Source of the DNA: Hyphomicrobiales bacterium
GTDB lineage: Bacteria > Pseudomonadota > Alphaproteobacteria > Rhizobiales > Beijerinckiaceae
Length of the DNA: 64,000 bases
Assembly: GCA_027483505.1 (NCBI GenBank)
Contig: JAIXUP010000018.1
Coordinates: 62,001 to 126,000, forward strand
Direction: 5' to 3'
Each line of letters opens with the position of its first letter. Position 1 is the stretch's first letter. Of this stretch, positions 44,041-62,023 are shown piece after piece. The notes under the pieces are model-generated. The model ran no database searches. It saw only the letters and a program-made list of their open reading frames with translations, and was not told where the DNA came from. Both the position numbers and the translations under genes were made by a program.

Positions 44041-45717
44041 TTATTGCCGTGCCAGCGCCTCGGCCCGGAGGCCCGACAGGGTCTTGGCCGGCGTGATCGC
44101 TTCCGGGTCGATCAGGCAGTGCAGGATTGACGGCTTTCCGCTCGCCAGCGCCCGCTCGAAGGCGGGCGCGAAGTCTGCGGTGGTCTCGACCCGTTCGCCA
44201 TGGCCGCCGAAGGCGCGGGCATAGGCGGCAAAATCGGGGTTTTTCAGCTCCGTCGCCGACACGCGCCCGGGATAGTGCACCTCCTGATGCATGCGGATGG
44301 TGCCGTACATGCCATTGTCGATCACCACGATGATGACCGGAAGGTCATACTGCACGGCGGTGGCGAACTCCTGCCCATTCATCAGGAAGCAGCCATCGCC
44401 GGCGAAGGCGACGACCACCCGGTCGGGATAAAGCCGCTTGAGGCCGACAGCCGCCGGCACGCCATAGCCCATCGATCCCGAGGTCGGCGCGGCCTGCGTG
44501 CCAAACCGGCGGAAGCGATGGAAGCGGTGCAGCCAGGTGGCGTAGTTGCCCGCCCCGTTGCACAGGATGGCGTCGGGCGGCAGCCGGTCGCGCAGCCAGA
44601 CGACGGCCTCGCCGGGGTGGAAGCTTCCCGGAATCGGAGCGGGTGCATCGGTCCAGCCATGAAAGCTCCGATGGGCCTCCTCGGCCGCCCCGCTCCAGGC
44701 GATGGCCTGCGGCGGGTGGACCGTCTGCAGGGCCGCGCAGAACGCCGTCGGCGACGCATTGATCGCCAGCGCCGGATGGTAGACGCGGCCCAACTCTCCC
44801 GCATCGGGATGGACATGGACCAGCGTGGCGCCCGGCTCGGGAATGCCGAACAGCGCGTAGCTCTGGCTCGGCATCTCCGACAGGCGTCCGCCCACCATCA
44901 GGACCAGATCGGAGGCCCTGATCCGTGCGAGCAGCTTCGGGTTCGGACCGATGCCGAGATCGCCGGCGAAGCAGGGGTGATCGGCGGAGAACAGCATCTG
45001 GCGGCGGAAGCTGACGGCCACCGGCAGGTCGAAGCGCTCGGCGAAGCGCTGGAAGCGGTCGACCGCCTGCGCGTCCCAGCGCGAGCCGCCGAGAAGGGCG
45101 ATCGGCGCCCTGGCGGCCCAGAGCATCTTCTGCAACTCGATCATCTGGGTGAGCGAAGGATGGGTCTCGACGGGCGTGAACGGCGTCGCGTCCATCACCG
45201 CGGCGGCTTCGGTCAGCACGTCCTCTGGCAGCGCGATCACCACCGGTCCGGGGCGGCCGCTGGTCGCCACGTGGAAGGCGCGGCTGATAATCTCCGGAAT
45301 GCGGGCGGGATCGTCGATCTCCGTGGCCCATTTCGCCATCGGACCAAAGACGGCCCGGTAGTCCATTTCCTGAAACGCCTCGCGCTCGCGCATGCCGCGC
45401 TCGATCTGGCCGACGAACAGGATCATCGGTGTTGAATCCTGCTTCGCGATATGGATGCCCGGCGAGGCGTTCGTCGCACCCGGCCCGCGCGTCACCATGC
45501 AGATGCCCGGCCTGCCGCTGATCTTGCCGGCGGCCTCCGCCATCATCGCTGCACCGCCCTCCTGCCGGCAGACGGTGATGCGGATCGCCGCATCGTGCAG
45601 CGCATCGAGCACGGCCAGATAGCTTTCGCCCGGCACGCAGAAAACATCTGTCACGCCCTGCAGAACCAGTTGGTCGACCAGGATCTGGCCGCCGGTTCGC
45701 GCCTTGGTCAGACTCAT
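44041..45717 (-). CDS. Thiamine-diphosphate-dependent enzyme, acetolactate-synthase-like
   Basis: 558 residues in three domains. The N-terminal pyrimidine-binding domain has DVFCVPGESYLAVLDAL and the activating Glu in VCRQEGGAAMMAEAAGK. A central domain is followed by the C-terminal pyrophosphate domain with AFAGDGCFLMNGQEFATAVQ (GDG...N). The partner loop GNYATWLHRFHRFR differs from classical IlvB, so anabolic acetolactate synthase is unlikely, and no small subunit gene is nearby. The natural reaction is unknown; decarboxylation or ligation of a 2-oxo acid is expected. It is the last gene of the overlapping chain and shares ATGA with the CoA-transferase gene. Confidence 0.85.
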   Translation of the reverse strand: MSLTKARTGGQILVDQLVLQGVTDVFCVPGESYLAVLDALHDAAIRITVCRQEGGAAMMAEAAGKISGRPGICMVTRGPGATNASPGIHIAKQDSTPMILFVGQIERGMREREAFQEMDYRAVFGPMAKWATEIDDPARIPEIISRAFHVATSGRPGPVVIALPEDVLTEAAAVMDATPFTPVETHPSLTQMIELQKMLWAARAPIALLGGSRWDAQAVDRFQRFAERFDLPVAVSFRRQMLFSADHPCFAGDLGIGPNPKLLARIRASDLVLMVGGRLSEMPSQSYALFGIPEPGATLVHVHPDAGELGRVYHPALAINASPTAFCAALQTVHPPQAIAWSGAAEEAHRSFHGWTDAPAPIPGSFHPGEAVVWLRDRLPPDAILCNGAGNYATWLHRFHRFRRFGTQAAPTSGSMGYGVPAAVGLKRLYPDRVVVAFAGDGCFLMNGQEFATAVQYDLPVIIVVIDNGMYGTIRMHQEVHYPGRVSATELKNPDFAAYARAFGGHGERVETTADFAPAFERALASGKPSILHCLIDPEAITPAKTLSGLRAEALARQ

Positions 45718-46913
45718 GATTGACCTCCCCAGTTCGGATCGTTGAGTATCTCGGCCGTATGCTGGCCGAGGCCGGGGCTGTGCCGCGGCGAAACCTGCCT
45801 CAGGCCATCGATCAAGATGGGCGAGGCCACGGTCGGGATGGTTCCGGCGCGCGCGGCAGCTGCCTCGAGGTCGCGCCTGACGCCGCGCGCCTTGACCTGC
45901 GGGTCGGCGAAGACCTCGTCCGTGGTGTTGATCGGCCCGGCCGGCACGCCGGAAGCTTCGAGCCGGGCCAGAATGTCGGCCTTGGCGAAGCGCATGGTCA
46001 GCGTTCCCAGATGCGGCACCAGCGCGGCGCGATTGGCGACGCGGTCCTTGTTGGCGAGATAATCGGGGTGCGTGGCAAGCTCAGGCGCGCCGAGCACATC
46101 GCAGAGCTTCCGCCACTGGCCGTCATTGCCGCTGGCGATGATGATGTGGCCGTCGGCGACCGGGAAGACCTCGTATGGGACGATGTTGGGGTGGGCGTTG
46201 CCCATGCGCCCCGGCGCCTTGCCAGAGACGAAGTAATTCATGGCCTGATTGGCCAGCACCGCGATCTGCGTGTCCATCAGCGCGAGATCGAGCGTCGCGC
46301 CCTCGCCGGTCTGGTCACGCCGGCGCAGCGCCGCGAGGATGCCGACGGAGGCATACATCCCGGTGAAGATGTCGGCGGTGGCATAGCCTGCCTTGGTGGG
46401 CTGGCCGTCCGGCTGCCCGGTGATCGACATCGGGCCGGCCATGCCCTGAATCAGGAAGTCGTAGCCGGCACGGTCGGCATAGGGGCCGGTCTGCCCGAAG
46501 CCGGTGATCGAGCAATAGATGAGGCGCGGAAAGGCGTCGCGCAACGCGGCAGCATCGAGCCCGTACTTCTCCAGCCCGCCGACCTTGAAGTTCTCGACCA
46601 CGACATCGGCATGCGCAGCCAGCTTCATCACCAGCGCCCGGCCTTCCGCGGTGCGGAAATCGGCGGTGATCGAGCGCTTGCCACGGTTGCAGGAGTGGAA
46701 GTAGGCCGCCGAGAGATTGCCGCCATCCGCCGCCTCGACGAAGGGCGGACCCCAGGAACGCGTGTCATCGCCCTCGGGGGCCTCGACCTTGACGACATCG
46801 GCGCCAAGATCGGCCATGAGTTGGCCGATCCAGGGCCCGGCCAGGATGCGGGCCAGCTCCAGAACCCTGACTCCGGCCAGCGGGGCGTTGCCGGAAGGAC
46901 GGCCTGCAGTCAT
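45714..46913 (-). CDS. Class III (CaiB/BaiF) CoA-transferase, probable glutarate CoA-transferase
   Basis: 399 residues. Family III features are GVRVLELARILAGPWIGQLM, ADLGADVVKVEAPEGDDTRS, YFHSCNRGKRSITADFRTAE, the catalytic Asp in RAGYDFLIQGMAGPMSITG and TADIFTGMYASVGILAAL. It moves CoA between a donor such as succinyl-CoA and a carboxylic acid. The presence of glutaryl-CoA dehydrogenase in the same operon points to glutarate as acceptor, as in gcdG-gcdH pairs of pseudomonads and mammalian SUGCT. That substrate is inferred from context. It overlaps its neighbours by four bases on both sides. Confidence 0.88.
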   Translation of the reverse strand: MTAGRPSGNAPLAGVRVLELARILAGPWIGQLMADLGADVVKVEAPEGDDTRSWGPPFVEAADGGNLSAAYFHSCNRGKRSITADFRTAEGRALVMKLAAHADVVVENFKVGGLEKYGLDAAALRDAFPRLIYCSITGFGQTGPYADRAGYDFLIQGMAGPMSITGQPDGQPTKAGYATADIFTGMYASVGILAALRRRDQTGEGATLDLALMDTQIAVLANQAMNYFVSGKAPGRMGNAHPNIVPYEVFPVADGHIIIASGNDGQWRKLCDVLGAPELATHPDYLANKDRVANRAALVPHLGTLTMRFAKADILARLEASGVPAGPINTTDEVFADPQVKARGVRRDLEAAAARAGTIPTVASPILIDGLRQVSPRHSPGLGQHTAEILNDPNWGGQS

Positions 46914-47728
46914 TCCTCGTCTCCATTGATGTCGGCGGCATCGATGCCGAGCGCCATTCCCAGTGCCATGAGCCCGACGATCTGCGCCATATAAATTTCA
47001 AGCGAGCGGCGGCCGCAGAAGCGCAGAGGGCGCACCAGAAACGCCGGCGGCTGGATCGTCGCCTCCCCGGTGCGAAAACGCAGCAGCAGCCCGCTGACCG
47101 CAATCACGCAGGCCGCTGCGATCCAGGTCTCGGCCACGCCGAATTCGTAGTCCGCGATCTGCATCACGAGGAAGGCCAGGGTCGCGAAGGCGCCGAGCGC
47201 CCGGCGCAGCAGCCAGTCGGGATCGCGCGGCCTGTCCGGCCCGGCCTCGCGTGCGCGCCGGTGCGCCAGGCCGACAAGCGCCAGCAGCATGCCTTCCGTG
47301 CCATATTCGAGCCATTGCCCGGCGAATGGCATCAGCGCGGCGAGCACCGCCGCAAACAGGGCGACGCGCCACCAGACGCCCATCACATACCGTTCGATCA
47401 GCGGCAGCGACAGCCTGATCAGGGCGAAATTGATCAGGATGTTGATCTCCGGATGCCCCTCGTCCGCCAGTCGCCAGCCATCGAGCGCCGTCAGCAGCAG
47501 ACCCGCCGCCCACCAGTGCCACGGCACCGCGCGGGTGCGGGCAAAGCCGATCAGGAAGAAGAAGACCGGCAGGGCCGCCCGGCCGATGGCGGTCAGCCAG
47601 GGCTGGTCCGGCCAGATGAAGAAACCGAGATGATCGACCAGAATCAGCAGCAGGGCCGCTGTCTTCCACAGATCGATCGAGGTGACGGCCGGGGCGCGCC
47701 CCAACGCAGGCGGCGCGGCCGCGCTCAC
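46910..47728 (-). CDS. TraX-like multi-pass membrane protein
   Basis: 272 residues with about eight hydrophobic segments. SIDLWKTAALLLILVDHLGF, AIGRAALPVFFFLIGFARTR and a repeated INFALIRLSLPLIERY layout resemble the TraX family. TraX of the F plasmid acetylates pilin, but chromosomal relatives have no known role. GTG start overlapping the dapB-like stop (GTGA). Its place inside a catabolic operon is unusual. Confidence 0.7.
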   Translation of the reverse strand: MSAAAPPALGRAPAVTSIDLWKTAALLLILVDHLGFFIWPDQPWLTAIGRAALPVFFFLIGFARTRAVPWHWWAAGLLLTALDGWRLADEGHPEINILINFALIRLSLPLIERYVMGVWWRVALFAAVLAALMPFAGQWLEYGTEGMLLALVGLAHRRAREAGPDRPRDPDWLLRRALGAFATLAFLVMQIADYEFGVAETWIAAACVIAVSGLLLRFRTGEATIQPPAFLVRPLRFCGRRSLEIYMAQIVGLMALGMALGIDAADINGDEE

Positions 47729-48540
47729 GTCAACACATGGTCCAGCCCGCGCCTCACGCCGACAAAGCCGGAGACCTTGCGGGCGGCGAGCAGCGTGCCG
47801 GCGACATAGGGCGCGGCTGAGGAGCCCGCATCGTGGCGGATCACCAGCCGCTCGTCCGGCGCACCGAAGATCGCCTCGCAGGAGAGCACGAAGGACGGCA
47901 TCCGCACGGAATGCACCTGCACGGGAATCGGCCCGCCGAGGGCTGCGCCGCGTGTTTCGCGGGCGCCGCCCAGCTCGCCGACCGGCTTGGCGGTCCCCGG
48001 ACGGCGCACCTTGGCCAATAGTTCGCCCAGCTCGCGGCCCGTGCCCGAAGGCGTGTCGGGCTTCTTGGCCGAGGCATAGTCGATGACCTCGACATCGGGC
48101 ACATATTTCGCCGCCTCAAGCGCGAAACGGCGCAGCAGCGTGGCGGTTATGGAGAAGTTTCCGGCTGCGAGAACGCCTTTTCCGGCGCTTTCTGCCGCAA
48201 TGTTGATCTTGTCATAATCGGCTTCGGTCAGCCCTGAGGTGCCGACCACGACATGGCGGCCATGGGCCAGTGCGGCCAGGGCATGGTGCTTGACGATGTC
48301 TGGCTTGGTATAGTCGATCAGCACATCGGAGGGTGCCGCCAGGGCTTCGGCGATCGTGGCCTGCACAATCACGCCGACAGGGCCTGTTCCGGCGACCTCG
48401 CCGGCATCCCTGCCCGCAGCGCTGCGCGAGACCGCGGCGACCAGCCTGAGATCGGGCTGGGCCTGGATGGCGGCGACCAGCGCCTTGCCAACCCAGCCGG
48501 AGACGCCGGCGAGAACGATGCGGATCGGGGCGGTTGTCAT
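47725..48540 (-). CDS. DapB-like (dihydrodipicolinate reductase family) protein with altered active site
   Basis: 271 residues with both DapB domains. The nucleotide site is IVLAGVSGWVGKALVAAI, followed by VLIDYTKPDIVKHHALAALA, VVVGTSGLTEADYDKI and AAGNFSITATLL. The C-terminal domain is VEVIDYASAKKPDTPSGTGR with FGAPDERLVIRHDAGSS. The E. coli DapB catalytic pair His159-His160 is replaced by Ala156-Ser157, while the substrate-binding Lys (K160 here) and PSGT stay. It is therefore probably not the lysine-biosynthesis enzyme, and a true dapB should exist elsewhere. It lies in an overlapping operon with glutaryl-CoA dehydrogenase. It may reduce another cyclic imine or related compound, but this is a guess. 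Confidence 0.82.
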   Translation of the reverse strand: MTTAPIRIVLAGVSGWVGKALVAAIQAQPDLRLVAAVSRSAAGRDAGEVAGTGPVGVIVQATIAEALAAPSDVLIDYTKPDIVKHHALAALAHGRHVVVGTSGLTEADYDKINIAAESAGKGVLAAGNFSITATLLRRFALEAAKYVPDVEVIDYASAKKPDTPSGTGRELGELLAKVRRPGTAKPVGELGGARETRGAALGGPIPVQVHSVRMPSFVLSCEAIFGAPDERLVIRHDAGSSAAPYVAGTLLAARKVSGFVGVRRGLDHVLT

Positions 48541-48944
48541 CGTGTGAACCTCTCACGGACCAGGTGCAGAAGCGGGAGCAGGGCAAAGGCGACCTGCGGC
48601 ATCAGTTCAAGCATGCCTTGGCCTCTCGCGTAAATCGCCAGTTGCATGGCGAGCGTGCGGCCGAAGCCGGACACCGCCACTGCCATCTCTCCGGCCATGG
48701 CCAGCGCAAACCCCGTAACGCCCATCACCAGCCGATGGGCCGCCAGCGCCGGAACATGGTGGCCGCGGATCAGCCACCAGGCGACAAACCAGGCCACCAG
48801 CAGGATGAAGGGGCCCTCGACCAGAACCACGGCCTCGCGCCCGAAGAGCGGGCCGAGCCAGAGCTCGCGCATCGCGCCGAGCGCAAAACCAAGCGCAAAG
48901 ATGGTGGAGCCGTAAACCAGCCCTGCGTTCAGCGCCTGTCGCAT
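48537..48944 (-). CDS. Integral membrane protein, unknown function
   Basis: 135 residues with four hydrophobic segments: YGSTIFALGFALGAMRELWL, VEGPFILLVAWFVAWWLIR, HRLVMGVTGFALAMAGEMAV and LMPQVAFALLPLLHLV. A GTG at 48947 is an alternative start overlapping the GNAT stop by four bases. The ATG at 48944 overlaps by one. It also overlaps the dapB-like start by four bases. I do not recognise the family with confidence. Confidence 0.75.
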   Translation of the reverse strand: MRQALNAGLVYGSTIFALGFALGAMRELWLGPLFGREAVVLVEGPFILLVAWFVAWWLIRGHHVPALAAHRLVMGVTGFALAMAGEMAVAVSGFGRTLAMQLAIYARGQGMLELMPQVAFALLPLLHLVRERFTR

Positions 48945-49456
48945 CACAGCTCCAGGCGCATGTAGCGGATGATTTTCCCCGCCTGCAATTCGCGTCGTCC
49001 GATCTCGATAAAGCCCAGGCCGGCATGAAGCGCGTCGGAGGCAGGGTTGGGCGGCCGGGCATTGATTTCGCAGCCGATCAGGGGCCGGCCTTCGGCACGC
49101 GCCCGGCCCATCAGGTCGGCATAGAGGAGCCGCGCCAGTCCGCGCCCGCGCGCGGCGGCAGCCACAACGACGCGGTCAACGTAGTAGAAGCGCTCGTGGC
49201 GCGCGCGGAACCAGGCCAGATTGTCGTTGCCATGAACCGAGGCATCATTGAAGGCAATCATGAAGGCGTCGGGCGTTTGCCCCACCGCAACGGCATAGCC
49301 CGCCGCTGCGACGAGCCGATCGTAGCTGGCAAGGTCGAGCACCGAGGTCTCGACCTTGCAGGTCTCGTTGAGGGCCAGCACCGCGTCCGCGGCGCAGGCG
49401 CGAAGATCGACAAGCGACGGCGCCAGCTTCGCGTCGCCACCGGTCGCCGATGGCAT
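48944..49456 (-). CDS. GNAT family N-acetyltransferase
   Basis: 170 residues. The acetyl-CoA site is RFYYVDRVVVAAAARGRGLA followed by RLLYADLMGRARAEGRPLIG. Motif B is PPNPASDALHAGLGFIEIGR. The N-terminal part LVDLRACAADAVLALNETCK (around residues 15-35) is less conserved. It transfers an acetyl or other acyl group to an amine; the substrate is unknown. Its ATG shares one base with the glutaryl-CoA dehydrogenase stop (TGATG), and its stop overlaps the next gene. Confidence 0.88.
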   Translation of the reverse strand: MPSATGGDAKLAPSLVDLRACAADAVLALNETCKVETSVLDLASYDRLVAAAGYAVAVGQTPDAFMIAFNDASVHGNDNLAWFRARHERFYYVDRVVVAAAARGRGLARLLYADLMGRARAEGRPLIGCEINARPPNPASDALHAGLGFIEIGRRELQAGKIIRYMRLEL

Positions 49457-50670
49457 CAGAAAAACGCCTGAAGCCCGGTGATGGCACGGCCAAGGATCAG
49501 CGCGTGCACGTCGTGGGTCCCCTCGTAGGTGTTAACCGTCTCGAGGTTCGCCGCGTGGCGCATCACATGATACTCGATCTGGATGCCGTTGCCGCCGTGC
49601 ATGTCGCGCGCCATTCGGGCGATGTCGAGCGCCTTGCCGCAATTGTTGCGCTTGACGATGGAGATGACCTCGGGCGCGAGCTTGCCCTCGTCGAACATGC
49701 GCCCGACGCGCAAGCTCCCCTGCAGGCCGAGCGCGATCTCGGTGGTCATGTCGGCCAGCTTCTTCTGGTAAAGCTGGGTCTGCGCCAGCGGCTTGCCGAA
49801 CTGGTGGCGGTCAAGGCCATATTGCCGCGCCTGCGCCATGCAGGCTTCGGCCGCACCCATCACGCCCCAGGAAATGCCATAGCGGGCGCGATTGAGACAG
49901 CCGAACGGACCCTTGAGGCCCGAGACATTCGGCAGAAGCTGGCTTTCCGGCACGAACACGTTGTCCATGACGATCTCGCCTGTGGTCGAGGCGCGCAAGG
50001 ACAGCTTGCCCCCGATCTTCGGCGCGGACAGGCCTTTCATGCCCTTCTCAAGGATAAAGCCCCGGATCTCATCGCCATGCGCGGACGACTTGGCCCAGAC
50101 CACGAAGACATCGGCGAAGGGTGAATTCGAGATCCACATCTTCGAGCCGTTCAGCACGTAGCCGCCGTCAGTCTTGACGGCGCGGGTCTTCATGCCGCCC
50201 GGATCGGAGCCAGCATCGGGCTCTGTCAGGCCGAAGCAGCCGATGAACTCGCCGCTCGCCAGCTTGGGCAGATACTTCTTGCGCTGGGTTTCATCGCCAT
50301 AGGCATAGATCGGATACATTACCAGCGAGGACTGCACGCTCATCATCGAGCGGTAGCCCGAATCGACGCGCTCGACCTCGCGGGCGACGAGCCCATAGGC
50401 GACATAGGACGCGCCGACGCCGCCATATTCCTCGGGAACGGTGACGCCCAGCAGGCCCTGTGCGCCCATCAGGCGGAAGAGTTCCGGCGCCGCCGTCTCG
50501 TTCATGTAGGCTTCGGCGACGCGCGGCATCAGGACATCCTGAGAAAAGGCGCGCGCCGCATCGCGGATCATGCGCTCTTCCTCGGAGAGTTGGTCCTCGA
50601 GCAGGAACGGGTCTTCCCAGTTGTAGACGGCCCTGGCCGCCTTGGCCTTGGTCTGTGGAACAGCGCTCAT
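49456..50670 (-). CDS. gcdH: Glutaryl-CoA dehydrogenase
   Basis: 404 residues. The GcdH-type N-terminus [20 protein letters not shown] is followed by [39 protein letters not shown] and the FAD/substrate motif [39 protein letters not shown] follows, then the catalytic Glu in [19 protein letters not shown]. It oxidatively decarboxylates glutaryl-CoA to crotonyl-CoA and CO2, feeding electrons to ETF. It marks the operon as a route for lysine, tryptophan or glutarate breakdown. It lies 36 bases after the nitronate-monooxygenase-like gene and overlaps the GNAT gene. Confidence 0.95.
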
Positions 50671-50706
50671 GATCTGGCCTCTCGATGCAGATTTGTGCTT
50701 TCGTCT

Positions 50707-51684
50707 TTAGCCCGCAATGCGCAGGCTTCCAAGCCGGGCGATGACCGCTTCGGCCTCCGCCACGGTGCGCTCGATGATCGCAGCGGCGGGAATGACGTCA
50801 TGGATCAGGCCGGTGGCTTCGCCGACCCAGACGCCGACCGCATCGGGATCGCCGGCGGCCACCCTGGCCTGGTAGTCCGCGCGCAGGCTCTCCGCCATGG
50901 CGCGGTGTTCGTCGGGACGGTGTTCCCAGTCCTGCACGAAACGGTTGTTCAGGACGCGGGCGGTGAACGCGGGCGGCCAGTCGTAGCCGCGGGCGATGTC
51001 GGTGGCGCGCTGGCGGACGGTGCCATCACCATTGGTCGACAGGGCCGCCTTCTGGTGGTTCGGGTGGGTGAGCGCCTCGCTTGCGGCCCAGAAGCGCGAT
51101 CCCATCAGCACGCCATCGGCTCCCAGCGCCAGCGCAGCGGCCAGCCCGCGCCCGTCCGCGATGCCGCCCGCCGCGACCAGCAGCGTGTCCGGCGCGAACC
51201 TTGCGAGACAATCGGCGACCTCGGGCACCAGCGTCAGGACCGCGCGATCGGCCCCGTGCCCACCGGCTTCCGTGCCCTGTGCGACGATCAGATCGGCGCC
51301 GGCCTCGATCGCGTCGCGGGCATGGGCGAGGGTCTGTATCTGGCAGATCAGGGCGCTGCCCGCAGCCCTGATCTCGTGCGCATGCGGGCGCGGATCGCCG
51401 AATGACAGCATGATCGCTGCGGGGGCGTGGGACAGGGCCTGCGTGAGCAGGGAGGGGTTCTTCGCCAGCGACCAGGTGATGAAGCCGCAGCCGATCCGGG
51501 CGTTGCCGGCGGCGGCGAACTCCCGCCCGAGCCACTCCGCATCGCCGTAGCCGCCGCCGATCAGGCCAAGGCCGCCCGCATGAGTGACTGCGGCCGCCAG
51601 CGCGCCACCCGCCGCAAAGGCCATCGGCGCCGAGAGGATCGGGTGGCGGATGCCGAGCCGGGCGGTGAGGCGCGTGGTCAGCAT
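50707..51684 (-). CDS. Nitronate monooxygenase / 2-nitropropane dioxygenase-like FMN protein
   Basis: 325-residue TIM barrel. RLGIRHPILSAPMAFAAGGA, HAGGLGLIGGGYGDAEWL, FMN-site IVAQGTEAGGHGADR, LLVAAGGIADGRGLAAALAL and GADGVLMGSRFWAASEAL are classical for the NMO/FabK-like family. The AQGTEAGGH motif, with the conserved His, supports the oxidase branch. The true substrate is unknown. ATG 51684 chosen over an upstream start at 51711. It sits between the ALDH7 gene (84-base gap) and gcdH (36-base gap), so it probably shares their transcript. Confidence 0.88.
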   Translation of the reverse strand: MLTTRLTARLGIRHPILSAPMAFAAGGALAAAVTHAGGLGLIGGGYGDAEWLGREFAAAGNARIGCGFITWSLAKNPSLLTQALSHAPAAIMLSFGDPRPHAHEIRAAGSALICQIQTLAHARDAIEAGADLIVAQGTEAGGHGADRAVLTLVPEVADCLARFAPDTLLVAAGGIADGRGLAAALALGADGVLMGSRFWAASEALTHPNHQKAALSTNGDGTVRQRATDIARGYDWPPAFTARVLNNRFVQDWEHRPDEHRAMAESLRADYQARVAAGDPDAVGVWVGEATGLIHDVIPAAAIIERTVAEAEAVIARLGSLRIAG

Positions 51685-51768
51685 CGGCAACCACTCGAGG
51701 CCACACAACAAGTCCTCATCACGTCAGCTGACCTCATGATGATCAGAGGTGGCCGGCGGAAGGCTGCC

Positions 51769-53295
51769 TCAGCCCTCCACATCGAAGACCACGCCCTGCG
51801 CCAGCGGCAGCGTTGCGCCGTAGTTCACGGTGTTGGTGGCGCGGCGCATGTAGGCTTTCCACGAGTCCGATCCCGCCTCGCGCCCGCCGCCGGTTTCCTT
51901 CTCGCCGCCGAACGCCCCGCCGATTTCGGCTCCGGACGGGCCGATGTTGACATTGGCGATGCCGCAATCGGAGCCTGCAGCCGAGAGGAAGGTCTCCGCT
52001 TCGCGCATGTCGAGCGTGAAGATCGACGACGACAGGCCTGCGCCGACCGCGTTCTGCAGGGCGATGGCTTCGGGCAAGGTCTTGTAGCGCGTCACATAGA
52101 GGATCGGCGCGAAGGTCTCGTGAAGCATGGGCCCGGCCTGCATCGGCATCTCGACCAGTGCGGGCGCGGCATAGCAGGCCGCGTCGCCGGCAATCCCCGC
52201 CACCCGTTGGCCGCCATGGATGATGCCGCCATGGGCGCGCGCGTCGCCCAGCGCGCGCTCCATGCCGTCAAGGGCGGCGGCGTCGATCAGCGGGCCGACC
52301 AGCACGCCGGCCTGACGCGGATCGCCGATCCTGACCGAGCCATAGACCCTGGCAAGACGGGGCACGAGTTTGTCGTAAATCGAGTCGTGCACGAACAGGC
52401 GGCGCAGGGTGGTGCAGCGCTGGCCTGCGGTTCCCATGGCGGCGAAGGCGATGCCGCGCAGGGCGAGATCAAGATCCGCCGAGGGCGCCACAATCGCCGC
52501 GTTGTTGCCGCCAAGCTCCAGGATGGCGCGGGCGAAGCGCCTGGCGAGACGCGGGCCGACCTCGCGCCCCATGCGGGTCGAACCGGTGGCGGAGACGACC
52601 GCCACGCGCGGATCGTCGACCATGATCTCTCCAATCGCCCTGTCGCCCATCAGCAAAGCACACAGGCCGCGCGGTGCATCGGGACCGAAGCGCTTCAGCG
52701 CCCGTTCAACGATGGCCTGCGTGGCCAGCGCGGTCAGCGGCGTCTTCTCGGACGGCTTCCAGACCACCGGATTGCCGCAGACCAGCGCCAGCGCCGCGTT
52801 CCACGACCAGACCGCGACGGGGAAATTGAAGGCGGATATGACGCCGCAGACGCCAAGCGGATGCCAGGTCTCCATCATCCGGTGCGAGGGCCGCTCGGTG
52901 GCGATGGTCAGGCCATAGAGCTGGCGCGAGAGGCCGACGGCAAAATCGCAGATGTCGATCATCTCCTGCACCTCGCCGAGGCCTTCGGAGGTGATCTTGC
53001 CGGCTTCCAGCGTCACCAGAAGGCCCAGATCATCCTTGGCGGCACGCAGCTCCTCGCCGAGCAGCCGCACCAGTTCGCCGCGGCGCGGGGCGGGCACCAG
53101 CCGCCACGCCAGGAAGGCCTCATGCGCGGCGGCGATGATGGCGCCGGCCTCTGCAGCTGAGTTGGCCCGCACGGTTGCAACCGTTTCGCCCGTGATCGGC
53201 GAGCGGGCCGCAAGGCCCGAGGACGCAAAGGCCCTGTCCGGCACGCCGAGCTTTTTCAGAAGCGCAAGAGCAGAGTCGCGAACGGGGGTGGCCAT
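51769..53295 (-). CDS. amaB: ALDH7/antiquitin-type aldehyde dehydrogenase, probable L-piperideine-6-carboxylate (aminoadipate semialdehyde) dehydrogenase
   Basis: 508 residues. The catalytic Cys is in GTAGQRCTTLRRLFVHDS, the general base Glu in ILELGGNNAAIVAPSADLD, and [19 protein letters not shown] lines the tunnel. The C-terminal GGREAGSDSWKAYMRRATNT is the diagnostic ALDH7 segment that recognises aminoadipate semialdehyde. It converts the semialdehyde (in equilibrium with piperideine-6-carboxylate) to L-2-aminoadipate with NAD. The start at ATG 53295 follows the family N-terminus. It heads the minus-strand catabolic operon and is divergent from the DAO-type oxidase across 152 bases. Confidence 0.9.
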   Translation of the reverse strand: MATPVRDSALALLKKLGVPDRAFASSGLAARSPITGETVATVRANSAAEAGAIIAAAHEAFLAWRLVPAPRRGELVRLLGEELRAAKDDLGLLVTLEAGKITSEGLGEVQEMIDICDFAVGLSRQLYGLTIATERPSHRMMETWHPLGVCGVISAFNFPVAVWSWNAALALVCGNPVVWKPSEKTPLTALATQAIVERALKRFGPDAPRGLCALLMGDRAIGEIMVDDPRVAVVSATGSTRMGREVGPRLARRFARAILELGGNNAAIVAPSADLDLALRGIAFAAMGTAGQRCTTLRRLFVHDSIYDKLVPRLARVYGSVRIGDPRQAGVLVGPLIDAAALDGMERALGDARAHGGIIHGGQRVAGIAGDAACYAAPALVEMPMQAGPMLHETFAPILYVTRYKTLPEAIALQNAVGAGLSSSIFTLDMREAETFLSAAGSDCGIANVNIGPSGAEIGGAFGGEKETGGGREAGSDSWKAYMRRATNTVNYGATLPLAQGVVFDVEG

Positions 53296-53447
53296 GGCCT
53301 CTCGTCTCCATTGATCGTGCTGCGCTACATGGGCCGGGATGCGCCAACAGGCAATCGGGAAATCCGTGGCCCGGCATGCACACTGTTCATTGCAGCAAGC
53401 GGGCCGGCGACTTGCGCCAGGCCCGGGCAAGATTGCATGGTCAGGTC

Positions 53448-54662
53448 ATGAGCGACGTGTCGGCAGATGTGGTGATCGTGGGTGGAGCGGCCATCGGCTC
53501 CTCGGTGGCCTATCATCTGATGGCCGATGCCGGCTTCAAGGGCCGTGTCGTCGTGATCGAGAAGGACCCGACCTACCGGCTGTCGGCCTCCGCCCTGTCA
53601 GCCGCCTCGATCCGGCAGCAATTCTCCAGCGCGGTCAACATCAGGATCTCGCTGCATGGCATCGCCTTCCTCAGGGCGATCGCCACGCATCTGGCCGTTG
53701 ACGGCGACGCGCCCGACATCGGCCTGAAGGAGGGCGGCTATCTCTATCTCGCCAGCGCGGCAGGGGCCGGGACGCTGCATGGCGTGAACGCGCTGCAACG
53801 GGCGGAAGGTGCCGACATTGCGCTTCTGGACAAGGCGGCGCTGGCGGCGAGATTCCCGTGGCTCCAGCTCGATGATGTGGTGTGCGGCAATCTCGGCGTC
53901 TCGGGCGAAGGCTGGTTCGACGGATGGGGCCTGCTGCAGGCCTTCCGCAAGAAGGCGCGGTCGCTGGGAGCCACCTACATCACCGGCGAAGTGGCGTCGT
54001 ACGAGATGGCCCACAACCGCATTCAGGCCGTGCTGCTCGGCGATGGCACGCGCATTCCGTGCGGCTTTGCGGTCAACGCCGCCGGCTCGCACGGCGCGCG
54101 TCTGGCGGCGACCGCCGGGGTGATCATCCCGGTCATGCCGAAGAAGCGCTACGTCTTCACCTTCACCTGCAAGGGCGAGGTGCCGAACTGTCCGCTGCTG
54201 ATCGACACCAGCGGGGCCTATTGCCGCCCCGAGGGCCATCGCACGGCGGAGGGCCAGATGTTCATCTGCGGCGCGTCGCCGCCGGCGAGCGATGATCCCG
54301 ATTGGGACGAGAGCCATCCCGGCGTCGCCGATGTCGACTGGTCCTTCTTTGAGGACACCGTCTGGCCGGCGCTGGCGGCACGCGTGCCCGCCTTCGAGGC
54401 GATCAAGACGGGCGCTGCCTGGGCCGGGCCCTACGACATGAACATGCTCGATGCGAACGCCATCATCGGGCCTGCCTTCGCTGTGCCCAACCTCATGCTG
54501 GCCAACGGCTTTTCGGGCCACGGGCTGCAGCAGTCACCGGCGGTCGGGCGCGGGCTCGCCGAAGTGATCGCCCATGGCCGCTATACGTCACTTGACCTCA
54601 CCGACCTCGGCCATGAGCGCATCGTGCTGGGCCGACCCCTCCTTGAAGCCAACGTCATCTGA
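53448..54662 (+). CDS. DAO-family FAD-dependent oxidoreductase, possibly pipecolate/imino-acid oxidase
   Basis: 404 residues. It begins with the dinucleotide motif ADVVIVGGAAIGSSVAYHLM and the acidic end of the second strand VVVIEKDPTYRLSA. The DAO fold continues through FAVNAAGSHGARLAATAG, and the FAD tail is LANGFSGHGLQQSPAVGRGL. Relatives oxidise amino or imino acids such as sarcosine, pipecolate or proline, using FAD. The divergent ALDH7 gene makes pipecolate (giving piperideine-6-carboxylate) an attractive substrate, as in the amaA-amaB pair of Pseudomonas; that is inference. ATG 53448 chosen. The dinB-like gene follows 10 bases later. Confidence 0.82.
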   Translation: MSDVSADVVIVGGAAIGSSVAYHLMADAGFKGRVVVIEKDPTYRLSASALSAASIRQQFSSAVNIRISLHGIAFLRAIATHLAVDGDAPDIGLKEGGYLYLASAAGAGTLHGVNALQRAEGADIALLDKAALAARFPWLQLDDVVCGNLGVSGEGWFDGWGLLQAFRKKARSLGATYITGEVASYEMAHNRIQAVLLGDGTRIPCGFAVNAAGSHGARLAATAGVIIPVMPKKRYVFTFTCKGEVPNCPLLIDTSGAYCRPEGHRTAEGQMFICGASPPASDDPDWDESHPGVADVDWSFFEDTVWPALAARVPAFEAIKTGAAWAGPYDMNMLDANAIIGPAFAVPNLMLANGFSGHGLQQSPAVGRGLAEVIAHGRYTSLDLTDLGHERIVLGRPLLEANVI

Positions 54663-54672
54663 AAGAGCAAGG

Positions 54673-55173
54673 ATGATCTCGAAGGAGCATGTGCGCCTGA
54701 TGGCCCGCTACAACCGCTGGCAGAACCAGAGCCTCTACCGCGAGGCGGACAGCCTCGGGGAGGCGGCGCGACGACAGGAGCGCGGGGCGTTTTTCTCGTC
54801 GATCCACGGCACGCTCAGCCACCTGATGTGGGGCGACAGGATCTGGATGCACCGGTTCGACGGTCTCGAGAAGCCGGCCGGCGGGATCAGGGACTCTGTC
54901 GCGCTCCATCCAGACTGGGCGGCGCTCAAGGCCAGCCGCGCGAGCTTCGACGAGGTGATCTGCGCATGGGCAGGGCGCGTCAGCGAGGCCTGGCTCGCCA
55001 GTCAAACAGGCTGGTATTCAGGCGCGATGGCGCGCGATGTGGCCCGGCCAAACTGGCTGCTCGTCACGCACTTCTTCAACCACCAGACGCATCATCGCGG
55101 TCAGGTCCACGCCATGATCACGTCGGCCGGGGGCAAGCCGGACGACACCGACCTGATCTTCATGGAGGCCTAG
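54673..55173 (+). CDS. DinB/YfiT-family metal-binding protein
   Basis: 166 residues in a four-helix bundle. MARYNRWQNQSLYREADSLG is helix 1, FFSSIHGTLSHLMWGDRIWM carries the first metal His, and VTHFFNHQTHHRGQVHAMIT has the H-x3-H pair. Such proteins bind a divalent metal and often act as thiol-dependent S-transferases; the substrate here is not known. AAGGA precedes the ATG. The stop TAG shares CTAG with the stop of the convergent PfkB gene. Confidence 0.9.
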   Translation: MISKEHVRLMARYNRWQNQSLYREADSLGEAARRQERGAFFSSIHGTLSHLMWGDRIWMHRFDGLEKPAGGIRDSVALHPDWAALKASRASFDEVICAWAGRVSEAWLASQTGWYSGAMARDVARPNWLLVTHFFNHQTHHRGQVHAMITSAGGKPDDTDLIFMEA

Positions 55174-61912: not shown

Positions 61913-62023
61913 CAAAGCGCCCCACATGATGAGCCTGCCAGGGCTCGGACAGGGCCGCCTGCAGCGCGTGAATGGCCGACCAACACCAACCCCCCGGTGC
62001 TCCTGGCGCTTTAAGGAGATCAT

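Follow-up and report, generated by a model that had tools for sequence, protein, structure and literature searches.

How does a bacterium that carries both ends of the 2-aminoadipate route get from one end to the other? The question is raised by a gene cluster at positions 44041-54662 of the window, by which we mean the whole analysed stretch of 64,000 nucleotides (positions 62,001 to 126,000 of contig JAIXUP010000018.1, assembly GCA_027483505.1). The source is a Hyphomicrobiales bacterium whose genome, 3.9 Mb in 87 contigs, is 99.93% complete. An initial annotation, made from the sequence alone, had named ten genes here, among them enzymes for both ends of the aminoadipate route, and had pointed out that no classical enzyme leads from aminoadipate to glutarate. 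All ten open reading frames (ORFs) are confirmed, and profile scores and solved relatives bear out that both ends are present. We consider it likely that the operon specifies a lower aminoadipate route for lysine or pipecolate that runs via free glutarate, and that its last gene, encoding a thiamine pyrophosphate (TPP)-dependent enzyme, supplies the middle by decarboxylating 2-oxoadipate.

In the proposed pathway, AmaB would convert piperideine-6-carboxylate/aminoadipate semialdehyde to 2-aminoadipate, and either an aminotransferase encoded outside the operon or the DAO-type oxidase beside it would turn this into 2-oxoadipate. The TPP enzyme, standing in for HglS or for a dedicated 2-oxoadipate dehydrogenase, would decarboxylate 2-oxoadipate to glutarate semialdehyde, and an aldehyde dehydrogenase (ALDH), possibly AmaB acting again, would produce glutarate. 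The class III CoA-transferase CaiB would activate glutarate with succinyl-CoA, and the glutaryl-CoA dehydrogenase (GCDH; GcdH in the window) would yield crotonyl-CoA. The AmaB, CaiB and GcdH steps are supported by family, while the two steps between 2-oxoadipate and glutarate are ones that we infer.

AmaB passes the L-piperidine-6-carboxylate dehydrogenase model NF050084 (803 bits, cut-off 730) and matches the solved relatives 6dbb (694 bits) and ALDH7A1 2j6l (455 bits), which puts it close to antiquitin-type enzymes. The initial annotation had asked into which clade this ALDH7 protein falls; by profile and solved relatives, not by tree, it scores as a piperideine-6-carboxylate/aminoadipate-semialdehyde dehydrogenase. 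The best model for CaiB is succinate--glutarate CoA-transferase (NF052585), at 580 bits against a curated cut-off of 750, and its solved matches are PDB 4ed9 (479 bits) and 9br6 (296 bits). GcdH scores 739, 613 and 558 bits against the solved acyl-CoA/glutaryl-CoA dehydrogenases 4w9u, 3gnc and 1sir, and 229 bits (cut-off 470) against the model Acd (NF045552), which we take to describe the non-decarboxylating glutaryl-CoA dehydrogenase of Desulfo-type bacteria. On these scores, which place it nearer the solved glutaryl-CoA dehydrogenases than the Acd model, GcdH is predicted to be of the decarboxylating type. The TPP enzyme passes the NCBIfam model PRK08199 (NF006052) with 913 bits against a cut-off of 539, a subfamily whose label there is merely 'thiamine pyrophosphate protein'. 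Among solved proteins a catabolic acetolactate synthase comes closest to it (244 bits), followed at a distance by pyruvate oxidases (142 bits) and oxalyl-CoA decarboxylases (141 bits or less); the AlphaFold model was poor (mean pLDDT 54) and was not used. That the protein might be an ordinary acetolactate synthase was considered and set low, as it scores under the curated cut-offs (327 against 538 bits for TIGR00118, 259 against 551 for TIGR02418) and no acetolactate synthase model reaches its cut-off among the best 25 of 55 matches.

Two established ways out of 2-oxoadipate were then sought, both of them searches that the initial annotation had proposed, and for these two the lack of a classical middle enzyme was upheld. 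HglS converts 2-oxoadipate to 2-hydroxyglutarate. No match to its family (PF07063, the DUF1338 type) was found in the source genome at E<=0.001. For the dehydrogenase we looked at 18 genomes, namely 17 with the CaiB-TPP gene pair described below and one (G180) with AmaB-DapB2-TPP, where DapB2 is the DapB-like protein of the operon. Every one of the 18, the source genome included, has exactly one SucA-type (2-oxoglutarate dehydrogenase) E1 over the cut-off, besides weak partial matches, so that no dedicated 2-oxoadipate dehydrogenase of SucA type is apparent. Across the order, 9 of 199 genomes have HglS. It lies 0.2-3.2 kb from AmaB in five of the nine, with no TPP gene near it among the places listed. 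One of these genomes (G023; L295, 4343-9717) has a run of LysR, HglS, an AmaA-like oxidase and AmaB that is an HglS-type counterpart of the window operon. Its HglS is over the HglS cut-off (755 bits, cut-off 550) and its AmaA-like oxidase under the AmaA one (461 bits, cut-off 600). Its LysR shares 48% identity with the LysR that adjoins AmaB in one of the TPP clusters (L037).

The linkage of the TPP gene to CaiB and AmaB was surveyed in 199 genomes drawn evenly from the order, with thresholds of E<=1e-120 for TPP and CaiB and E<=1e-150 for AmaB. Homologues were present in 149 genomes for TPP, 96 for CaiB and 66 for AmaB. Both CaiB and TPP occur in 81 genomes, and 17 of these, spread over seven families, carry the two genes side by side on one strand with a gap of less than 600 bases (coordinates read by eye), where about 0.08 such pairs would be expected under random placement, kinship ignored. 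Of the 60 genomes that have TPP together with AmaB, 8 show them no more than 10 kb apart (against 0.3 expected, kinship again ignored); these pairs were picked by eye and their gaps computed. The 17 and the 8 are lower bounds, the weakest TPP places being unlisted. Another five genomes (G084, G119, G149, G175 and G197), all those of one genus of family f44 for which both genes were listed, have the two 18-23 kb apart. Co-occurrence regardless of place is weaker (p=0.003 for TPP-CaiB, 0.0002 for TPP-AmaB and 5e-6 for AmaB-CaiB, kinship ignored). Conservation of gene order in relatives had been set as a test by the initial annotation, and gene order is in fact conserved.

The arrangements themselves are varied. 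The loci were selected by TPP or DapB2 similarity or by a known pair and are not an unbiased sample; neighbouring ORFs come from a simple GC-based caller that includes spurious frames, names without a profile were assigned by eye, and TPP in L048, L050 and L071, missed by the caller, was located by tblastn. The fullest clusters read AmaB-GCDH-CaiB-TPP-DAO (L035, L050) and AmaB-DapB2-GCDH-small ORF-CaiB-TPP-DAO (L037). Shorter ones read AmaB-DapB2-TPP (L042), GCDH-CaiB-TPP without AmaB (L080, L085, L260) or CaiB-TPP alone (L064, L069, L254-L256, L261, L262). Among named organisms, TPP is present in all ten selected genomes reached via DapB2 loci. Rhizobiales bacterium YIM 77505 (L139) has AmaB-GCDH-DapB2-TraX-CaiB-TPP with a divergent DAO, an order near-identical to that of the window. 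The order AmaB-GCDH-CaiB-TPP, with LysR and DAO adjoining, is seen in Bosea sp. LC85, B. psychrotolerans, B. lathyri and Chelatococcus albus, whose TPP enzymes are 78-82% identical to that of the window, with 82% for Bosea sp. LC85. Mesorhizobium sp. Root157 has CaiB-TPP. In Microvirga terrestris and Microvirga sp. ACRRW the genes are split between two sites, one with AmaB-TPP and the other with GCDH-DapB2-CaiB. In M. terrestris (L284, 4194-10814) a saccharopine-dehydrogenase-family gene (PF03435 and PF16653), AmaB and TPP are consecutive; this family group includes lysine 6-dehydrogenase. A divergent AsnC/Lrp regulator and a DAO gene stand alongside, making a nearly complete lysine route. On plasmids (four contexts examined of 197 plasmid records carrying TPP), Azospirillum argentinense has TPP-AmaB, with AmaB over the cut-off at 818 bits. 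Rhizobium leguminosarum has CaiB-TPP with a CaiB of 793.6 bits, over the succinate--glutarate CoA-transferase cut-off of 750, and Diaphorobacter has TPP followed by an ALDH closest to 2,5-dioxovalerate dehydrogenase (513 bits, under the cut-off of 750). The contexts thus recombine: AmaB-TPP, CaiB-TPP and AmaB-GCDH-CaiB-TPP all occur.

We inspected a tree and an alignment of 105 TPP homologues taken from the fetched loci and chosen by similarity, not at random. The 26 tips with an adjacent CaiB require 10 parsimony steps, against a mean of 23.4 (19-26) in 200 shuffles. The linkage is therefore inherited in part, yet it crops up at many points of the tree, interspersed with members that lack it. 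Residues E53, R475 and H477 are kept in at least 97% of the homologues and R77 in all 105. E53 aligns with a glutamate of acetolactate synthase that we take to be catalytic. The R77 column holds Ser and Thr in the two best-aligned solved relatives, and the best-aligned one has Ala at R475 and Gln at H477; the extra conserved positive charge would be consistent with a substrate that bears a second carboxylate group. As an observation apart, the TPP gene of nine loci (L047, L049, L052, L053, L054, L056, L059, L062 and L089) is near a gene for a universal-stress-like protein and one for a protein of 900 residues, judged by eye to resemble an NDP-forming acyl-CoA synthetase fusion.

The TPP enzyme had been one of three candidates offered for the gap, and it is the one we favour: its role as gap-filler is well supported by gene order, by the replacement pattern with HglS and by the absence of the two alternatives. 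Several observations nonetheless weigh against a pathway of this kind. The PRK08199-type enzyme is widespread, in three quarters of the surveyed genomes of the order (149/199, as above) and in 75 of 299 of the phylum, and its loci within the order are mostly without CaiB (adjacent in 8 of 40 and 2 of 19 loci in two sets). Outside the order, none of 28 loci (L231-L250, L263-L270) has a CaiB, GCDH or AmaB-grade match nearby; their neighbours, named by eye, include transporters, an acyl-CoA ligase and others, and because these differ, members of the family may not all share one substrate. TPP stands without pathway partners in Methylobrevis albus and Stella (L287, L288). Conversely, AmaB-GCDH-CaiB groups occur without a nearby TPP (L296, L297), as do AmaB and CaiB on one contig (L298), TPP being located at another site in all three genomes. 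HglS and the CaiB-TPP pair coexist, at separate places, in three genomes (G023, G136, G187), so the two routes are not mutually exclusive. The operon itself holds no aminotransferase and no dedicated glutarate semialdehyde dehydrogenase, the window CaiB stays under its curated cut-off, 2-oxoadipate could be a substrate of the SucA complex, and our literature search found no activity or mutant data for any PRK08199 protein.

Comparison with known systems places the proposal more precisely. The D-lysine/aminoadipate route of Pseudomonas putida runs through AmaA, AmaB and HglS. It shares with the present one AmaB at the same step and 2-oxoadipate as an intermediate, but HglS was not found here and TPP-CaiB-GcdH are proposed to reach crotonyl-CoA instead. 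The GcdG/GcdH glutarate route likewise has a CoA-transferase and a glutaryl-CoA dehydrogenase in one operon, although glutarate would here come from 2-oxoadipate via the TPP enzyme and not from 5-aminovalerate. The mammalian DHTKD1 route has the same antiquitin-type ALDH7 and GCDH; it differs in that no second 2-oxoglutarate dehydrogenase-type E1 over the cut-off is found here and free glutarate would be the intermediate. The likeness to Agrobacterium lies in the same CaiB family and in 2-oxoadipate and lysine as sources. According to the passages available to us, biotin synthesis in that organism is fed by any of lysine, 2-oxoadipate and glutarate, its CaiB (Atu2127) supplies glutaryl-CoA to BioZ, and a CaiB mutant is a biotin auxotroph; the enzyme for the step from 2-oxoadipate to glutarate goes unnamed in those passages (PMC7645780). 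This result, as far as those passages describe it, fits a route through free glutarate, since a direct conversion of 2-oxoadipate to glutaryl-CoA would not need CaiB. A biotin role for the window copy was considered and rejected, as the source genome has no BioB over the cut-off (best match 39.8 bits, cut-off 225); the organism is probably a biotin auxotroph and the route here probably catabolic.

Other explanations differ in what they make of the TPP enzyme. It may decarboxylate oxidatively, with bound flavin adenine dinucleotide (FAD) and quinone or oxygen, and so give glutarate directly within the same pathway, much as a pyruvate oxidase would. We regard this as unlikely. It would account for CaiB-TPP pairs with no ALDH directly beside TPP (L064, L069 and R. 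leguminosarum), and acetohydroxyacid synthases, which bind FAD, are among the enzyme's solved relatives. The closest of these relatives is, however, of the FAD-independent kind, for catabolic acetolactate synthases need none, the pyruvate oxidases are farther off, and ALDH genes do follow TPP in Azospirillum and Diaphorobacter. Alternatively, the SucA complex might oxidize 2-oxoadipate directly to glutaryl-CoA, leaving the TPP enzyme a side reaction and CaiB a supply of glutarate from elsewhere, such as 5-aminovalerate. All 18 genomes possess a SucA-type E1, such E1s can use 2-oxoadipate (one abstract describes redundancy of the two mammalian enzymes), and Phaeobacter, according to the part of the report available to us, has parallel cadaverine and pipecolate routes (PMC5653290). 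This explanation leaves both the CaiB-TPP and the AmaB-TPP linkage unexplained and does not readily fit the CaiB requirement of Agrobacterium, at least as the passages cited above present it, given that 2-oxoadipate feeds biotin there; we think it unlikely.

The classical oxalate system has a class III CoA-transferase next to a TPP enzyme, and the CaiB-TPP pair could by analogy with frc-oxc make an acyl-CoA and then decarboxylate or cleave it. Oxalyl-CoA decarboxylases are indeed among the TPP enzyme's solved relatives, but CaiB scores higher on the succinate--glutarate model (580 bits, against 269 for CoA:oxalate CoA-transferase and 228 for formyl-CoA transferase), the TPP enzyme scores as PRK08199 and its best 25 of 55 matches include no model for oxalyl-CoA decarboxylase, and the linked genes are GCDH and AmaB. 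We consider this highly improbable. It is quite unlikely, finally, that a related cyclic amine or lactam is what the island breaks down, with entry at pipecolate or aminoadipate and with lysine not its physiological substrate. The operon does lack a recognised lysine-entry enzyme, and a plasmid of Rhizobium sp. CIAT894 (L293, 1-8677) carries in one run hydantoinase A, hydantoinase B, an aspartate-type aminotransferase, an NAD-epimerase-like protein, DAO and TPP (identities 47% for DAO and 59% for TPP), which perhaps degrades a lactam of 2-aminoadipate. The saccharopine-dehydrogenase-family gene directly before AmaB-TPP in M. terrestris speaks for lysine, and the lower steps are identical under either reading.

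The preferred reading, decarboxylation of 2-oxoadipate by the TPP enzyme on the way to free glutarate, would close the gap between aminoadipate and glutarate in the lysine catabolism of those Hyphomicrobiales that lack HglS, and would give a function to part of the widespread family PRK08199. It would also provide a candidate enzyme behind the Agrobacterium result, in which 2-oxoadipate leads to biotin with a requirement for CaiB. A more general claim, that the CaiB-linked PRK08199 enzymes represent a new 2-oxoadipate decarboxylase activity, a further bacterial exit from 2-oxoadipate and the source of glutarate for CaiB/BioZ biotin synthesis in alphaproteobacteria, is in our judgement evenly balanced. 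The activity is probably new. Searches of the open-access literature returned no paper with the exact phrase '2-oxoadipate decarboxylase', related phrases leading only to unrelated levulinic acid work, and no title or abstract opening among those returned concerned the 2-oxoadipate decarboxylation step.

The remaining genes of the island are listed with the others in Table 1. Transcription on the minus strand runs from AmaB through the nitronate monooxygenase (NMO)-like protein, GcdH, GNAT, a small membrane protein, the DapB-like protein, the TraX-like protein and CaiB to TPP. With the starts chosen, successive genes from GCDH through to TPP share 1-4 bases, 36 bases separate GCDH from NMO and 57 separate NMO from AmaB; because of these overlaps and short gaps, AmaB to TPP reads as a single operon. 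The DAO-type gene is divergent from AmaB, and the 155-base spacer between them is probably a promoter region.

Table 1. Features of the island, with positions in the window and the basis of each assignment
Feature	Positions	Strand	Basis
TPP-dependent enzyme, PRK08199 family, proposed 2-oxoadipate decarboxylase	44041..45717	-	NF006052 913 bits; neighbours; conserved residues
Class III CoA-transferase (CaiB/GcdG-like), proposed succinyl-CoA:glutarate CoA-transferase	45714..46913	-	NF052585 580 bits; PDB 4ed9, 9br6
TraX-like membrane protein, accessory	46910..47728	-	PF05857 50 bits
DapB paralogue (DapB2) without the canonical His pair	47725..48540	-	TIGR00036 166 bits
Small membrane protein, no family	48537..48947	-	No Pfam/NCBIfam match
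GNAT acetyltransferase	48944..49456	-	PF00583
Glutaryl-CoA dehydrogenase (GcdH)	49456..50670	-	Solved relatives 4w9u, 3gnc, 1sir
Nitronate-monooxygenase/FabK-like flavoprotein, lineage-specific	50707..51711	-	PF03060 138 bits
AmaB-type L-piperideine-6-carboxylate/aminoadipate semialdehyde dehydrogenase; start ATG at 53292	51769..53292	-	NF050084 803 bits
AmaB/DAO divergent intergenic region, 155 bases, putative promoter region	53293..53447	.	Coordinates; function inferred
DAO-type FAD oxidase/dehydrogenase, proposed L-pipecolate or 2-aminoadipate oxidation	53448..54662	+	PF01266 171 bits

DapB2 passes the DapB model TIGR00036 (166 bits, cut-off 122) and is one of two DapB-type matches in the source genome, the canonical copy being on contig 34 (263 bits). 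In the window protein the canonical motif EMHHRxKxDAPSGT is replaced by DYASAKKPDTPSGT, with both His lost and the Lys and PSGT preserved. The His pair of this motif has a catalytic role in DapB. DapB2 rows mostly read D-Y-A-S-x-x-K-P-D-T-P-S-G-T, with Lys and P-S-G retained, and the pair is absent from all 12 of the commonest variants (78 rows) and present in three aligned canonical copies. Judging by this motif, DapB2 should not be filed as DapB despite its passing score, and the DapB2-type genes (loci L122-L201) are likely misnamed in the Hyphomicrobiales; if so, a recurrent annotation would be corrected. Named loci, the best 80 of 132 relatives (at identity thresholds that we set, some loci being short), have GCDH nearby in 29 cases and CaiB in 28, while DapB2 occurs without either in Bosea and Phreatobacter loci and in all named Mesorhizobium but one. 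The initial annotation had offered the DapB-like and NMO-like proteins too as candidates for the gap or a side branch. The first recurs near GCDH and CaiB with nothing that ties it to the gap, and the second, present in 3 of the 80 loci, is not supported as a gap candidate. That DapB2 might be a piperideine carboxylate reductase, acting for instance on piperideine-2-carboxylate, is an idea only. The source genome has three matches to the Ldh_2 family, of which we take DpkA to be a member, and therefore no gap calls for DapB2 in that role. Its predicted structure has a mean pLDDT of 75.5.

The DAO gene accompanies the cluster in several lineages, including Bosea, Chelatococcus and Microvirga. 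Its nearest solved chains are 1y56_B (68 bits) and 3vqr/3axb (48 bits), named 'sarcosine oxidase' and 'putative oxidoreductase' in the PDB, which we take to be archaeal L-proline dehydrogenases. The identification with the L-pipecolate oxidase AmaA was rejected: the window DAO has no match to the curated AmaA model NF050086 (cut-off 600) at E<=0.001, the best protein in the source genome reaches 113.6 bits (contig 87), and none of the 18 genomes has one over the cut-off. Oxidation of L-pipecolate and of 2-aminoadipate are both possible.

As for the accessory genes, NMO occurs in 3, GNAT in 2, TraX in 5 and the small membrane protein, by tblastn, in 6 of the 80 named DapB2 loci, and NMO, GNAT and TraX were rejected as core pathway parts on account of this rarity in relatives. 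The gene for the TraX-type membrane protein overlaps its neighbours within the operon, and the protein is also seen in L122, L123, L124, L126 and L139. Directly after DAO, at window positions 54673-55173, lies a gene for a DinB-family protein (PF05163, 82 bits), and a DinB-like gene is likewise found beyond DAO, by eye, in L281 (Bosea) and L123.

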